A stretch of DNA of 64,000 nt from Comamonas sp. (GTDB taxonomy: Bacteria > Pseudomonadota > Gammaproteobacteria > Burkholderiales > Burkholderiaceae_C): assembly GCF_009360615.1 (NCBI RefSeq), contig NZ_SPEY01000095.1, forward strand, positions 1-64,000, written 5' to 3'. The notes beneath the pieces were generated by a model. It was given only the letters and a program-made list of their open reading frames with translations, was not told the origin of the DNA and did not search any database. A program made the position numbers and the translations under genes. Shown piece after piece: positions 55,273-60,504 of this stretch; within the stretch, counting starts at the first letter, position 1; each line of letters begins with the position of its first letter.

Positions 55273-56016
55273 ATGGACGCTGGTACCTGGTTCACGCAGC
55301 TCAATGCCTGGCAAGTCATGGCTTTGGGTCTGGTTTTTTTCGGGGGTATTTATCTGCTGGGCGGCCTGTTCATGGGCATGCTGACAGGATTGCTGGCCCG
55401 CCGGGGCATCGGCAGGCCGCTGGATACGCGCCCGCTCAAGTCCGAACAACTGCGCCGCGAATGGCGCCAGTCCTTTCATTCCATACTGATCTTCGGCATC
55501 GGCATGATCGTCCCCTGGGGCTTTCTGCAACTGGGCTGGGCCCGGCTCTCGCCCACCGCCAGCAGCGGACGCATTGCCCTGGAGATCTTTGCGCTGCTGA
55601 TCTGGAACGATGTGCACTTCTGGATCAACCACCGCCTGCTGCACACCCGCCGTCTGGTGCGCTATCACGGTGACCATCATCGCTCGGTGGTGACCACACC
55701 CTGGTCCACCTACAGCTTCCATCCCATAGAGGCCCTGATGCTGGGCAACATCATCTTGCTGCCGATGCTGGTGCATGACTTCTACTTCTGGTCGCTGGCC
55801 TCGGTGCCGGTATTGAGTCTGATCCTGAATCTGATCGGCCATTCCAACTACGATTTTTTTCCCAGAGTCTCCGACACGCACCCGCTGGCCGCCAGCCGCC
55901 GTCATCATCTGCACCACGCACGCCCCGCAGGCAACTATGGCTTTGCACTGGCTTTCATGGACCAGATCATGCGCACCAGGGTCACCGACAGTGCTCCACA
56001 CAGCCCCCGCCACTGA
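55273..56016 (+). CDS. Sterol desaturase/fatty acid hydroxylase superfamily membrane protein
   Basis: A 247-residue integral membrane protein starting at 55273; the longer frame from 55114 was rejected. Histidine clusters HFWINHRLLH, HGDHH and HHLHH are the di-iron ligands of this superfamily. Four or so hydrophobic helices surround them. It should hydroxylate or desaturate a lipid or fatty acyl chain. Its stop abuts the next desaturase gene, so the two are probably coexpressed. Confidence 0.87.
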   Translation: MDAGTWFTQLNAWQVMALGLVFFGGIYLLGGLFMGMLTGLLARRGIGRPLDTRPLKSEQLRREWRQSFHSILIFGIGMIVPWGFLQLGWARLSPTASSGRIALEIFALLIWNDVHFWINHRLLHTRRLVRYHGDHHRSVVTTPWSTYSFHPIEALMLGNIILLPMLVHDFYFWSLASVPVLSLILNLIGHSNYDFFPRVSDTHPLAASRRHHLHHARPAGNYGFALAFMDQIMRTRVTDSAPHSPRH

Positions 56017-56937
56017 ATGAGCAGGCGCCGCTATCCCGTTCTGCGCCATTGGCGCGACTGGCAATCCGTGTTCTACATGCTGCTGCTGCCACTGCTGGTA
56101 TGGTGGCAATGGAGCCGGGGCTTCAGCGTCATTCTCTACGGCGTCGAGCTGTTCCTGACCTTGGGGGTCGGCGTGATTCACCACAACCACACCCATGTGC
56201 GGATGTGGCGGGGGCGCTGGACCAACCGCCTGACCGATTACTGGCTGACCCTGCTTCAGGGCCATCCCACCTTTGTGTTCTGGCCCGCCCATGTGGCCAA
56301 CCACCACCGCTTCCGCCACGGACCGCGCGATCTGGCGCGCACCTACCGGCCTGAATGGGGTGGCGATACCAACCATCTTTGGGGCTATCTGATTCACCCT
56401 GTGCAGGCGGCATTGGTGCTGTATCCGCTATTTTTTCGCTGGCTGAACAACCTGCGTCTGCACTGGCCCGGTGCCTTTCGCTACTGCATGGGGCAATACC
56501 TGCTGTGGCTGGGCAGCTGGGGCTTTTTTCTCTGGCTGGACTGGCAGAAGGCCCTGATTTTCATCATCGTTCCCCAGTTGCACGGCCTGCACTGGCTGCT
56601 GGCCACCAACTATCTGCAGCATGCCCATGCCGACGGCCGGCCGCTGACCAGAGCACAGCGCAATACTCCAGGTATCGAGCTGAACTACGCGCGCAACTTT
56701 GAAGGCCTGGTCAACCCCCTGCTTTTTAATATTGGCCTGCACACCGCGCACCATGAATGCCCGCATGCCCACTGGTCTGAACTGAGCGGACTGCATGAGC
56801 GCATTTACCGCCAACGGGTCACTCCTGCATTGAACGAACGTGGCCTGCTGCCTTATATGGGACGCGTGTTTGTATTGGGTCTGGTCCGGCCCGCGGCAAG
56901 AACCGAGCCGCTGATGCCGCCCGACGCTGTGAAGTAA
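56017..56937 (+). CDS. Fatty acid desaturase family membrane protein
   Basis: A 306-residue membrane protein with three histidine boxes in order: HHNHTH (about 55-60), HHRFRH (about 95-100) and HTAHHECPH (about 245-253), plus several transmembrane helices. This is the acyl-lipid desaturase pattern. It begins immediately at the end of the hydroxylase gene and 17 bp before the KAS III fusion gene. The acyl substrate and carrier are unknown. Confidence 0.88.
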   Translation: MSRRRYPVLRHWRDWQSVFYMLLLPLLVWWQWSRGFSVILYGVELFLTLGVGVIHHNHTHVRMWRGRWTNRLTDYWLTLLQGHPTFVFWPAHVANHHRFRHGPRDLARTYRPEWGGDTNHLWGYLIHPVQAALVLYPLFFRWLNNLRLHWPGAFRYCMGQYLLWLGSWGFFLWLDWQKALIFIIVPQLHGLHWLLATNYLQHAHADGRPLTRAQRNTPGIELNYARNFEGLVNPLLFNIGLHTAHHECPHAHWSELSGLHERIYRQRVTPALNERGLLPYMGRVFVLGLVRPAARTEPLMPPDAVK

Positions 56938-56954
56938 AAACCTGTTGAGGATCT

Positions 56955-58889
56955 ATGCCCGTCGCCTATTCCAAGGTCTATCTGCAATCTGCCGGCATGT
57001 TTCTGCCCGGTGCCCCGGTGGACAACGCTGGCATGGATGCGTTTGTCGCACCGCTGAACCGCATCTCCGAGCGCATCAAGCGCCGCATTCTGGCCGAAAA
57101 CGGCATCCAGACTCGCCACTACGCGATTGATGGCGAAGGCCAGACGGTGTTCAGCAACGCCCGCATGGCGGCTGGCGCGATCGAAGAGACCCTGGCCCTG
57201 GCGGGCAAGAAGCTCTCCGATATCGGCTTTCTGTCCAGCGGATCTTCGGGAGGCGATGCGCTGATGCCCGGCTTTGCCAGCATGATCCAGGGCGAGATGG
57301 CCGCCCCCCCCATGGAAACGCTGTCCGTGCATGGGGTCTGCGCCGCCAGTGTGGGTGCCATGCAAGCCGCTGCCATGGCCGTGGAAAGCGGCGCCCATGC
57401 GCTGGCCCTGTCGGTGGCCAGCGAAATGCCCTCGCGTCTGTTCAAGCGTTCGCGCTTTGCGGCCCAGGGCTATGACACCGACTTTGATGCCCACTTTCTG
57501 CGCTGGATGCTGTCCGACGGCGCAGGCGCGGTGCTGCTGGGCGGACCCAGGGCCCTGCCCCAGGCCAACGGACTGCGCCTCCGGCTCAAATGGACGCACC
57601 AGCGCAGCTTTGCCGGCGACTACCCCGTGTGCATGCAGCTGGGCATGACGGCCGATCGTGGCAAAAGCCATCTGGACTTCCCTGCCTGGGGCGATGCCGA
57701 GGCTGCAGGCGCTCTCGCACTGCGCCAGGACATTCGCCTGCTGCCGCATCTGTTCGATGTCTGCATCCACGAATATGCTGCCCTGGCCCACCAGGGCTGG
57801 TTGCCTGAACGCGGCATCGACCACTTTCTCTGCCACTACTCGTCGGAGCGCTTCATCCCCGTGGTCGACGAGCTGCTGGACAAGGCCCAGCTCGGCATTC
57901 CACGCGAGCGCTGGTGGAGCAATCTGGCCTGGCGCGGCAACACGGGGGCCGCCTCGATCTTCATCATGCTGTCGGAGTTTCTGCAAAAACAGGGCCAGCG
58001 CCTGAAAGCCGGCGACACCGTGCTCTGCTTCATCCCTGAGTCGGGCCGTTTCACCGCAGGCTACATGCTATGGGAAGTCGAGCAGGACACGCATACGCAG
58101 AAAGCGAGCGAGACCACTTTCCCTCAAAACTCCGTGCAGATGTCGGTGCCAGCGGGTGACGCGCTTCCCGATGTTTCGAGCATCGCCGCACCGCACGACC
58201 CGGCCACCGCGCCTGCACAGCTGGCGCCGCTGCTGACCGAGCTGGCCAGCATCTGGCAGGACTACCGCAGCAATGTCTGGCGCACGCCCCTGCTCCAGCG
58301 CATGCGCACGCGCCGGTTGCAGATCACCGACTATCTGCGCTGGATGAGCCACTGGATTCCCCAGGTGCGCGAAGGCAGTCTGTGGATGCGCGAAGGCGCG
58401 GCCTCGCTGACCGGAGACTACGCCACGCTGGCCTCGCTGATCGACCTGCATGCCGGCGAGGAGCAGAACGACTTCAAGATTCTGCACAGCGACTATCTGA
58501 AGGCAGGCGGCACCGAGACCGATATCCATCGCCTGCGCCGCAACCCCGGCGGCGAAGCGCTCAACGCCTATCTGCACAGCCTGGCTGCCACACCCAACCC
58601 GATCGGCCTGCTGGGGGCCATCTACATCATCGAAGGCACGGGCCAGCGCATCGTGCCCAGCCTGCTGCCCCTGCTGCGCCAGAGCCTGCCGCTGCCGCCC
58701 GATGCCTTCCGCTTTCTCGAATACCACGGTGCCAACGACGAGAACCACCTGGAGCGCTGGCTGCTGGCCGTGCAGATGGCACTGGATCTGGACAGCGAGG
58801 GCACGGCGCAGCAGGCCATACTGCAGACGGCGCGCAGCACGGCCGCCATGTACCTGATGCAGTTCCAACATGTGCTGACCGAGCGCTAA
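56955..58889 (+). CDS. KAS III-like ketosynthase fused to a heme-oxygenase-like di-iron domain
   Basis: A 644-residue two-domain protein. Residues about 1-380 are a thiolase fold with the KAS III triad C129 (HGVCAAS), H294 (CHYSSERF) and N329 (RGNTGAAS). After a Pro/Ala/Ser linker, residues about 425-640 form a helical domain with ligand-type residues: E502/E503, H511, E560, H591, D595 and H598. This resembles iron-containing redox enzymes (UndA, CADD, PqqC type). It could build a beta-keto or chain-extended acyl product and oxidise or fragment it. I know of no characterised enzyme with this fusion. Confidence 0.82.
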   Translation: MPVAYSKVYLQSAGMFLPGAPVDNAGMDAFVAPLNRISERIKRRILAENGIQTRHYAIDGEGQTVFSNARMAAGAIEETLALAGKKLSDIGFLSSGSSGGDALMPGFASMIQGEMAAPPMETLSVHGVCAASVGAMQAAAMAVESGAHALALSVASEMPSRLFKRSRFAAQGYDTDFDAHFLRWMLSDGAGAVLLGGPRALPQANGLRLRLKWTHQRSFAGDYPVCMQLGMTADRGKSHLDFPAWGDAEAAGALALRQDIRLLPHLFDVCIHEYAALAHQGWLPERGIDHFLCHYSSERFIPVVDELLDKAQLGIPRERWWSNLAWRGNTGAASIFIMLSEFLQKQGQRLKAGDTVLCFIPESGRFTAGYMLWEVEQDTHTQKASETTFPQNSVQMSVPAGDALPDVSSIAAPHDPATAPAQLAPLLTELASIWQDYRSNVWRTPLLQRMRTRRLQITDYLRWMSHWIPQVREGSLWMREGAASLTGDYATLASLIDLHAGEEQNDFKILHSDYLKAGGTETDIHRLRRNPGGEALNAYLHSLAATPNPIGLLGAIYIIEGTGQRIVPSLLPLLRQSLPLPPDAFRFLEYHGANDENHLERWLLAVQMALDLDSEGTAQQAILQTARSTAAMYLMQFQHVLTER

Positions 58890-58920
58890 CCACAAACAGC
58901 AAGAAGCACCGGGAGGACCC

Positions 58921-59859
58921 ATGAAGAACGAATTCAACGACCATGTCTGGGACGAGCGCGACCCCAGTCCCTGGCTGGCGCTCTACCTCGACCAGAGCAC
59001 GCCTCTGCCCGATGACGTCAAGGCCGCCTGGCTGCGCGACTGCAGCAGCAGCTCGCGCCAGTTCTTTCTGCCTGCCATGCGGCCGCTGGCGCGGCTGTCC
59101 ATGATCATCATTCAGGCGCTGAAGATCTTTCTGCCCAAGCGCTGGTCACACTCCATGCTGCTGCACCGCCTGCTGGCCTTCGGCATGAAGAAATTTCTCT
59201 CGCCGGAGGCCAACTGGCTCATCATGCGGCACTTTCACCTGGGCTCCCAGGTACTGGCCTTCGTCGCAGCCAATGCCCCGACCAGGGTCAGCACCGCGCC
59301 CTTGATGCCCATGGAAATCGACGATGTGAAGGACGAGCTGTTTCTCAAGCACGACCTCAACCTCTTCAACTTCGTGATCCGCCTGAACAAGGCGCTGCGG
59401 GAGAACGGGCAGGAACTGGTGCCCGTGGCCGAGCCCGACTTTTCCATGATCCGCGAGCCCGAGCTCAGGCTCGAAGACATGCCGCGCGGGCGCTTCAACG
59501 TCATCGACCTGCAAAGCGCCATCGAGCTCTACACACCCATCTACCAGTTGCTGCTGACCGACAACGACTTCTGGCGCGCCAGCAACTCGCTGCAGCTCGA
59601 CGAAACCGTTGCCATCTACTGCGCCAAGATCCTGGCCTCTCCCGAGCATCTGGTGCTGCTCAACAACAAGCACCCCATGGTGCCGCTGTCCACGCTGTAT
59701 GCAGCCTACCGTCTGGTGCTGCACGGCCTCTCCACCGAGATGCTGCACTCGCTGCTGACACGCATGGCCAACGGCGAGCACCCTGTTCCCGCGCGCGAGC
59801 TGGCCAGGATGCACCGGGCCGCCGAGACGGTGATGGATCAGACAGCCGCACAAAGCTGA
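58921..59859 (+). CDS. Unknown protein of the lipid cluster
   Basis: A 312-residue protein starting 31 bp after the ketosynthase fusion stop, behind a GGGAGGA ribosome site. It is mainly helical, with a hydrophobic segment at about 55-75 (LSMIIIQALKIFLP), a His-containing region (MRHFHLGSQVLAF, FLKHDLNLFNFVIRLNKALR) and no signal peptide. I do not recognise the family. Its fixed place next to the fusion gene suggests a carrier, chaperone or transport role for the lipid product. Confidence 0.75.
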   Translation: MKNEFNDHVWDERDPSPWLALYLDQSTPLPDDVKAAWLRDCSSSSRQFFLPAMRPLARLSMIIIQALKIFLPKRWSHSMLLHRLLAFGMKKFLSPEANWLIMRHFHLGSQVLAFVAANAPTRVSTAPLMPMEIDDVKDELFLKHDLNLFNFVIRLNKALRENGQELVPVAEPDFSMIREPELRLEDMPRGRFNVIDLQSAIELYTPIYQLLLTDNDFWRASNSLQLDETVAIYCAKILASPEHLVLLNNKHPMVPLSTLYAAYRLVLHGLSTEMLHSLLTRMANGEHPVPARELARMHRAAETVMDQTAAQS

Positions 59860-59862
59860 AAC

Positions 59863-60504
59863 ATGGACCCACGAAGCAACCGCATCACAAGCGTTCGCAT
59901 CGACGAGCAGACCATCTGGCTTGCACTCGCGGATGGACGTGAACTGGCCGAGCCCATCAAGCGGCATATCCGGCTCGAAAAAGCCACCCCCGAGCAACGC
60001 CTGGCCTGGGTTCTGACCGATGAGGGTCACGGCCTGGACTGGCCGGCACTGTGGCAGCCCTCTGCTGCGGGCATGGTCAGCGTCTGGGATCTGGATCAGG
60101 ACAGTCTCTACCGCCAGGCCATGGACGCGCTGCTCGCCGCCCAATGGGACGTCACCCGGATATCCGCGGTCCATCGGGAACTGGTGGCCCTATGGCGCAT
60201 GGAAGCCGATATCAACAACGGCGGCTTTCTGCAGTTTCTGGGCAACTGGGGGCTGGCCAACCATCAGCTCACCCTGCAGGCTCTGCAGGCCATAGGCGCG
60301 CCCATCACGCGCCAGTGTCTGCAGGACATGTTTGCGGTGCTCAAGCGCTTCGAGGAGGGGCCAGAAAATGTGGACTACTCCGATCTGCCGGCACTGCTGA
60401 CGGATGCCGAGCATGCGCAGTTGCAGGAGCTCGAAGAAGCCTTCTGGGACTACCCGGAGCCCCTGAACAAGCTGGTGGTCATGCACTACGGATCCGCCCA
60501 ATGA
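59863..60504 (+). CDS. DUF2442-DUF4375 fusion protein
   Basis: A 213-residue protein. The N-terminal 65 residues (ITSVRIDEQTIWLALADGRE, then ATPEQRLAWVL and GLDWPAL) match DUF2442, often seen as a solitary or toxin-linked domain. The C-terminal 140 (VHRELVALWRMEADINNGGF) match DUF4375. It is stop-start coupled to the downstream Imm22-like gene, so it may belong to an orphan immunity locus. Confidence 0.77.
   Translation: MDPRSNRITSVRIDEQTIWLALADGRELAEPIKRHIRLEKATPEQRLAWVLTDEGHGLDWPALWQPSAAGMVSVWDLDQDSLYRQAMDALLAAQWDVTRISAVHRELVALWRMEADINNGGFLQFLGNWGLANHQLTLQALQAIGAPITRQCLQDMFAVLKRFEEGPENVDYSDLPALLTDAEHAQLQELEEAFWDYPEPLNKLVVMHYGSAQ

Follow-up and report, generated by a model that had tools for sequence, protein, structure and literature searches.

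A gene cluster at positions 55273 to 59859 of a Comamonas sp. contig (assembly GCF_009360615.1, contig NZ_SPEY01000095.1; the 64,000 nucleotides analysed, positions 1 to 64,000, are referred to as the window) encodes a ketosynthase fused to a heme-oxygenase-like dimetal oxidase (HDO), together with a hydroxylase, a desaturase and a DUF6999 protein. The bacterial gene set is conserved and apparently unstudied, and it probably makes a fat-derived aromatic compound by a chemistry different from the known one. More specifically, we tentatively propose that its core, comprising a StlD/DarB-like ketosynthase, the HDO and DUF6999 (hereafter the module), may be a route to a dialkylresorcinol-type lipid that does not depend on the flavin enzyme DarA. 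The function of the module, and every chemical step assigned to it below, are inferred from the likeness of the ketosynthase to ring-forming enzymes, the predicted fold and candidate metal ligands of the HDO, and the lack of DarA-type matches beside the module.

A conserved four-gene unit

The four genes are real, rightly placed and conserved. Pfam matches and coordinates agree with the tightly packed hydroxylase, desaturase and ketosynthase-oxidase fusion reported in a preliminary description of this DNA, and its outer coordinates were checked and are right. All four are on the + strand, separated by 0, 17 and 31 bases:

55273..56016, + strand: FA_hydroxylase / sterol-desaturase-type membrane protein (Pfam PF04116; start codon read from the sequence)
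56017..56937, + strand: membrane fatty-acid desaturase (Pfam PF00487; His boxes)
56955..58889, + strand: ketosynthase-HDO fusion, 644 residues (Pfam PF08541 and PF14518 in one protein)
56955..58079, + strand: ketosynthase half, residues 1-375, StlD/DarB-like (NF005293 match, PDB 5gk0 StlD match)
58212..58889, + strand: HDO half, residues 420-644 (AlphaFold2 model, Foldseek, alignments)
58921..59859, + strand: DUF6999 protein, 312 residues (Pfam PF22523)

A total of 38 named loci carry the fusion, among them loci of Comamonas, Delftia, Corticibacter, Collimonas, Iodobacter, Chitinibacter and Lysobacter. In 32 of these 38, hydroxylase, desaturase and DUF6999 are all present beside the fusion, a gene order that goes far beyond what chance would give. 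The window genome (5.26 Mb in 125 contigs) is close to Comamonas testosteroni, its fusion sharing 94% identity with that of strain ATCC 11996 of this species. A scan of the locus for promoters and terminators gave no more hits than were obtained with shuffled sequences.

The ketosynthase half is closest to StlD and DarB

The preliminary description had taken the front half of the fusion for a generic KAS III and stated that the Cys-His-Asn triad is kept. The triad is indeed present:

57339-57341, + strand: Cys129, catalytic triad
57831-57836, + strand: Cys293/His294, of which His294 is the triad member
57939-57941, + strand: Asn329, catalytic triad

Besides the window, 59 module loci were collected (57 distinct, as there are two identical pairs), of which 51 carry the fusion (49 distinct). 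The triad His and Asn are kept in 59 of 59 and the Cys in 58 of 59, the remaining locus (L061) being cut off before the Cys position. The family assignment, on the other hand, had to be revised. Apart from a general ACP_syn_III_C match (PF08541, E 9.9e-9), the nearest solved structure is StlD (PDB 5gk0, E 2e-61; best non-StlD PDB entry 6.6e-8), and the best NCBIfam model is that of the StlD/DarB family beta-ketosynthases (NF005293, E 6.9e-92, 308.4 bits against a cut-off of 450). For the DarB-family residues around FLRWxLSDGA, CMxxG and PESGR, conservation is at least 24 of 26 among module ketosynthases and 6 of 6 among DarA-linked DarBs; in an alignment most of these marker residues are changed in, or missing from, the FabH of the window genome. 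By sequence, the half is a KAS III-type enzyme but not an ordinary one, and is closest to the StlD/DarB ketosynthases, which build a cyclohexanedione ring from two fatty-acid intermediates. A generic KAS III or FabH was rejected because of the much greater closeness of the fusion to StlD, and because a FabH-like gene (L001) occurs separately in the genome. OleA was likewise rejected: PDB 4kti, 4ku3, 5vxf and similar entries, listed merely as 3-oxoacyl-[ACP] synthase III but which we take to be OleA, matched at E of about 4e-5 to 2e-3, versus 2e-61 for StlD.

The oxidase half and its metal site

The C-terminal half matches Haem_oxygenas_2 (PF14518, E 1.3e-9), and its AlphaFold2 model is all-helical with a pLDDT of 94.6. 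A Foldseek search with the model returned CADD (TM score 0.82), UndA (TM score 0.78) and also 3dde, with E from 1e-6 to 5e-5. Whether this domain has an iron-binding fold had been singled out as a point to check, and the model predicts the heme-oxygenase fold of HDOs. In a sequence profile search of the PDB the sole match at E<=0.1 was 3dde (E 1.8e-11); UndA was not found at that threshold, so that the likeness to UndA is one of fold alone.

The following residues of the half were assigned by alignment:

58449, + strand: His499, invariant
58461, + strand: Glu503, candidate ligand
58470, + strand: Asp506, candidate ligand
58632, + strand: Glu560, candidate ligand
58725, + strand: His591, candidate ligand
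58737, + strand: Asp595, candidate ligand
58746, + strand: His598, candidate ligand

In the numbering of the half itself the six candidates are Glu84, Asp87, Glu141, His172, Asp176 and His179 (fusion 503, 506, 560, 591, 595 and 598), to be compared with the MboA ligands Glu86, His89, Glu143, His172, Asp176 and His181 given in a passage of PMC13185094. A full set of iron ligands had been claimed for the fusion; all six positions are indeed filled, and are fixed in 59 of 59 module loci in the alignment, but their identity differs in that Asp506 stands where the canonical site has its first His. All 59 module loci, 51 of them fused and 8 split, have this Asp. His occupies the equivalent position in 8 of 8 control HDOs (seven from 31 sampled genomes plus a second HDO of the window genome), the other five ligands agreeing, and in 3dde as well. 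A further difference concerns residue 499, which lies four positions ahead of the first Glu and by spacing matches Tyr82 of MboA: 59 of 59 module loci carry His here, against Tyr in 8 of 8 controls. By alignment, the module's active site is therefore set apart at two putatively functional positions, 499 and 506. Neither the 3-His/3-carboxylate ligand set of HDOs nor its 3-His/4-carboxylate variant is found in the aligned module sequences; the metal site would instead comprise two His and four carboxylates. Methane monooxygenase and ribonucleotide reductase have the same ligand count in a different fold. According to the parts of PMC13185094 that deal with the MboA structure, Tyr82 is placed as a possible base, and the first His is at partial occupancy in one chain, where a neighbouring Asp swings onto the iron.

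The second HDO of the window genome is canonical, with Glu-x2-His kept, and is flanked by an AMP-binding acyl-ligase-like gene on one side and a short-chain dehydrogenase on the other (L077:56-2842, contig C1); it possibly belongs to another uncharacterised HDO lipid pathway. DtpC, an Acinetobacter HDO linked to desiccation in a passage of PMC13232832, was set aside as a comparison because its setting differs from that of the module.

DUF6999, and the fused and separate-gene forms

DUF6999 was identified by a strong Pfam match (PF22523, 422.9 bits versus a cut-off of 27, E 5.4e-127). Of the 59 module loci only L046 is without it, and that locus ends before the gene, 100 bases past the fusion; DUF6999 is the third core member of the module. 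The protein is predicted to be all-helical (pLDDT 83.4), and its model had no solved-fold match: none was obtained at E<=0.001 among PDB and viral structures, the best PDB Foldseek hit having E 0.26 and probability 0.07. A sequence profile search gave no match better than E 1.8. A divergent HDO was considered and rejected (hhalign probability 0.2 versus the module HDOs). Since His104, His144, Asp145, Asp196, Asp227, His268 and Glu273 are invariant in the alignment, DUF6999 could be an enzyme.

Searches for DUF6999 found it in 9 of 398 genomes of the phylum, in 6 of 289 of the class of G512 and in 2 of 197 of the order of G640. With G512 and G640 counted twice, these are 15 distinct genomes, the window genome included, and in 15 of 15 a DarB-like ketosynthase and an HDO adjoin DUF6999. 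The two are separate genes in eight of these genomes and fused in seven. In the split loci (L071, L072 and L085-L090) ketosynthase and HDO are neighbours in 8 of 8; six belong to a class of the phylum other than the window's, that of G512 and its kin, which might be alpha-proteobacteria, and two to a different order within the window's class. The separate-gene order was also found on a plasmid of Pseudoalteromonas sp. THAF3. Within the window's order, 13 of 300 genomes (window genome included) carry the fusion, and 6 further matches were to the ketosynthase only.

Genome mining for the fusion and its neighbours, which had been suggested as a check, thus yielded 51 further fusion loci with the neighbours mostly kept. 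Of the named loci with gaps, L056 and L057 (Lysobacter) are without the desaturase, and neither accessory gene is seen in L042, L060 and L061, the last two of which include hardly any upstream sequence or none. The order search gave 12 other fusion loci, of which three are incomplete within short flanks: no desaturase is seen in L013 and L015, and no hydroxylase in L014. In a tree of ketosynthases the 18 sampled fusions form a single clade (support 100/99) beside the split gene of L072, which fits a single fusion event. The same tree set HDO-linked ketosynthases apart from DarB at a support of 90/67 only and with a very long FabH outgroup branch, and that separation was not relied on.

Some loci deviate in their surroundings. 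In the separate-gene modules L072 and L107, one of which is from Pseudoalteromonas sp. THAF3, a small protein with no Pfam match is encoded directly upstream of the ketosynthase (L072:10441-11007, 188 residues; L107:3621-4178, 185 residues); that of L072 has by eye the look of a His-rich membrane protein and might replace the hydroxylase. Directly downstream of DUF6999 in the separate-gene module L071 lies a gene for a 1133-residue MFS / acyltransferase / AMP-binding fusion (L071:4697-8098), and a protein with a similar-looking start is encoded about 3 kb downstream in L049 (14267-16147). The wider gap between ketosynthase and DUF6999 genes in L049-L052 (Iodobacter and similar) was inspected for an extra carrier-protein gene and held only short, dissimilar open reading frames. 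Control matches to PF22523 and PF14518 alone point to a putative copy of the module in Caulobacter vibrioides.

The module stands where DarA would be expected

In ordinary DarB loci (L091-L096) a DarA-type flavin aromatase gene was found upstream of the ketosynthase in 6 of 6 cases, directly so in four and with one or two small open reading frames between in L095 and L096. The label DarA was assigned by position and likeness, as no NCBIfam model names the one tested and Pfam gives a weak flavodoxin match. By tblastn, a DarA-type match was found in 0 of 35 module loci. At genome level, the DarA query at E<=0.001 matched 6 of 6 ordinary DarB genomes (one being the query's own) versus 1 of 22 module genomes. 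In the exception, G651, the DarA-type gene and the module lie on different contigs, the former next to a second ketosynthase that shares 59% identity with an ordinary DarB; this genome thus holds both a DarA-DarB pair (L097:7252-9319) and an HDO module (L073:3915-8387). Since the match is absent from the 35 module loci and from 21 of 22 module genomes, the module stands where DarA would be expected, and both systems can share one genome.

Proposed route

The product of DarB is described as a 4-carboxy-2,5-dialkylcyclohexane-1,3-dione (a passage of PMC5515871, citing Fuchs 2013), and a ring carboxylate has been proposed for a plant pathway too (PMC6018206). For UndA, the 2026 HDO review PMC13108848 describes, in the passages on this enzyme, that the substrate carboxylate ligates Fe1, that CO2 is lost and that a terminal alkene is left, abstraction of the C3 hydrogen being one of two mechanisms discussed there. 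By analogy, the acid made by DarB would be suited to an UndA-type step. Heterologous expression of darA and darB gave dialkylresorcinol, as reported in a passage of PMC3992019, so a cyclase and an aromatising oxidase can suffice.

In the proposed route, the ketosynthase would first join a beta-ketoacyl and a 2-enoyl thioester, both ordinary intermediates of fatty-acid synthesis, to give 4-carboxy-2,5-dialkylcyclohexane-1,3-dione, the reaction reported for DarB. The HDO metal site would then bind the ring carboxylate and, in an UndA-like manner, remove CO2 from C4 and hydrogen from C5. The resulting cyclohex-4-ene-1,3-dione (a C4=C5 enedione) would, by our own structural reasoning, be a tautomer of 2,5-dialkylresorcinol, and a single O2-dependent HDO step would do the job of the flavin enzyme DarA. 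Beta-keto acids of this kind tend to lose CO2 spontaneously, which may be why ketosynthase and HDO are fused, or encoded side by side: the acid could be handed over before it decarboxylates by itself. In the fused lineage only, the membrane hydroxylase and desaturase may trim the chains or the ring. DUF6999 is probably needed as well, since it is the constant partner.

We hold the general proposal, a DarA-independent route to a dialkylresorcinol-type lipid, to be possible. Its most specific form is more doubtful: that a heme-oxygenase-fold diiron enzyme with a 2-His/4-carboxylate site acts as an O2-dependent decarboxylating aromatase and, fused to the DarB-type cyclase, forms a single-polypeptide dialkylresorcinol synthase that arose in evolution as an alternative to flavin-dependent DarA, DUF6999 being an enzyme of new fold.

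Several observations weigh against the proposal. The fusion (308.4 bits) and four split relatives (321.7, 398.2, 341.0 and 326.8 bits) all stay below the NF005293 cut-off of 450, which two DarA-linked DarB controls exceed (567 and 614.4), and the substrate or product of the module ketosynthases may therefore differ. The DarB model NF053539 (cut-off 550 bits) was missed by the module ketosynthases, albeit also by the two DarA-linked controls (452.9 and 502.2). Moreover, Cys replaces the Pro before the catalytic His in 25 of 26 aligned module ketosynthases and in 58 of 59 loci; the residue is Pro in 6 of 6 ordinary DarBs. With Asp at position 506 in every module locus and His in place of Tyr at position 499, the HDO need not react as UndA does. 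Aromatisation could instead be the work of DUF6999. The absence of DarA was judged by tblastn and BLAST, using as queries the DarA genes of ordinary loci, and completeness is below 85% for two of the 22 module genomes (G144, 84%; G780, 74%). Finally, no dedicated acyl carrier protein gene was noticed in the module, and no metabolite was found reported for any module locus.

Alternative explanations

The same two departures from other HDOs, the non-canonical ligand set and a His at position 499 where 8 of 8 controls have Tyr, would also agree with a different division of labour, in which the ketosynthase makes a cyclohexanedione or resorcinol, the HDO oxidises in another way (by hydroxylating the ring, forming a quinone or oxidising the chain), and the product is finished by DUF6999 or spontaneously. 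The near-constant presence of DUF6999 (58 of 59 loci) and its invariant His, Asp and Glu residues allow that it could be an enzyme; against this, it has no detectable relation to the module HDOs or to solved structures, and nothing ties it to redox chemistry. We consider this division of labour somewhat improbable.

In the preliminary description the ketosynthase was thought to join or extend acyl chains to a beta-keto acid that the HDO would cleave to an alkene or ketone. This has in its favour the nearness of the HDO fold to UndA, and some KAS III relatives, OleA among them, join two acyl chains head to head. However, the ketosynthase is far more StlD/DarB-like than OleA-like, and the HDO has another residue in place of the first-helix His ligand. 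As the closest relatives of the ketosynthase are the ring-forming StlD/DarB enzymes, a ring is the likelier product, and an alkene or ketone seems to us unlikely.

Only slightly less likely still is that the module makes or remodels a structural lipid of the membrane or envelope and no secreted product, the likeness to resorcinol enzymes being merely ancestral. The hydroxylase and desaturase come from families acting on acyl chains, the module recurs in Comamonas and Delftia, and in L071 it is adjoined by the acyltransferase / AMP-binding / MFS fusion protein. The spread is patchy, however (13 of 300 genomes of the order for the fusion, 9 of 398 of the phylum for DUF6999), and no flanking lipid gene was common to the loci with gene calls that were inspected. 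A purely structural role of the HDO half, as a domain that is non-catalytic or free of metal, is very improbable: although one canonical ligand is changed and some heme-oxygenase-fold proteins work without metal (a passage of PMC13108848), a dead domain would be expected to drift, whereas none of the six ligand positions varies among the 59 loci, and Asp is itself a possible ligand.

Relation to known systems

The module resembles the DarA/DarB systems of flexirubin and arcuflavin and the StlD stilbene systems in that its ketosynthase belongs to the same broader family, with the triad and the family motifs, and it may share with DarA/DarB a minimal logic of cyclase plus oxidase. Unlike these systems, it has an HDO and DUF6999 and no DarA beside it, its ketosynthase scores below the NCBIfam StlD/DarB cut-offs, and in the window's lineage the ketosynthase is fused to the oxidase. 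With UndA, MboA and CADD it shares the predicted fold, its ligand frame (Glu-x2-X, Glu, His-x3-Asp-x2-His) being close to that of MboA; it differs from them in the exchange of the first-helix His for Asp, in the His at the position of MboA Tyr82 and in the coupling to a ketosynthase. CylC-type halogenases belong to a different family from HDOs. Cyanobacterial dialkylresorcinol clusters (CylC type, bartoloside-like) also have a dimetal enzyme in a DarB-containing cluster, but unlike the module they keep both DarA and DarB, and the dimetal-carboxylate enzyme is described as a halogenase, according to passages of PMC8406957. A dimetal enzyme in a DarB cluster is therefore not new as such.

A search of the open-licence literature gave no paper recognised as treating this gene set, no characterised pathway with the same genes, and none naming DUF6999. 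As far as this search reaches, the earlier view of a conserved and undescribed lipid-type pathway, with a ketosynthase physically coupled to an HDO-fold domain, is borne out. AntiSMASH clusters of type 'resorcinol' have been listed for Delftia acidovorans HK171 (PMC5334598) and D. tsuruhatensis (PMC9045143), and a table in PMC13339810 has them for each of its seven Delftia strains; in the passages concerned these entries give the cluster type, and no product, mechanism or HDO half. They are probably this locus, since the fusion in genome G133 is identical in sequence to that of Delftia tsuruhatensis L037 (with equal match values for desaturase, fusion and DUF6999) and is the sole DarB-type match there at E<=1e-20, among 4 of 10 candidates scored.

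If the proposal is right, the module would be a second chemical solution to dialkylresorcinols and would extend the HDO superfamily to aromatisation. It would also provide a natural 2-His/4-carboxylate site in the HDO fold, which is not among the ligand sets named in the relevant passages of PMC13108848, and tell what is encoded by the Delftia 'resorcinol' clusters, some of which come from biocontrol strains. With three core genes, or 4.6 kb when the accessory genes in the window are counted, the unit is small.

Accessory and neighbouring genes

The hydroxylase and desaturase are accessory genes and were met with the fused form only; tblastn gave no match to either in the available flanks of the 8 separate-gene loci, of which L085 is a short contig. 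Their Pfam assignments are clear (FA_hydroxylase PF04116, 72.2 bits versus a cut-off of 31, E 7e-20; FA_desaturase PF00487, 65.6 bits versus 29.7, E 7.7e-18). PDB searches with the desaturase and with the hydroxylase gave no relative. The histidine clusters of the hydroxylase are mostly invariant across 12 aligned homologues, as are the His boxes of the desaturase across 13.

A gene with DUF2442 and DMP19 domains lies at 59863-60504, starting 3 bases past DUF6999. It was considered as a member of the unit and rejected as non-core, as tblastn matched it in 4 of the 38 named loci (L024, L025, L033 and L058), all of them C. testosteroni or Comamonas.

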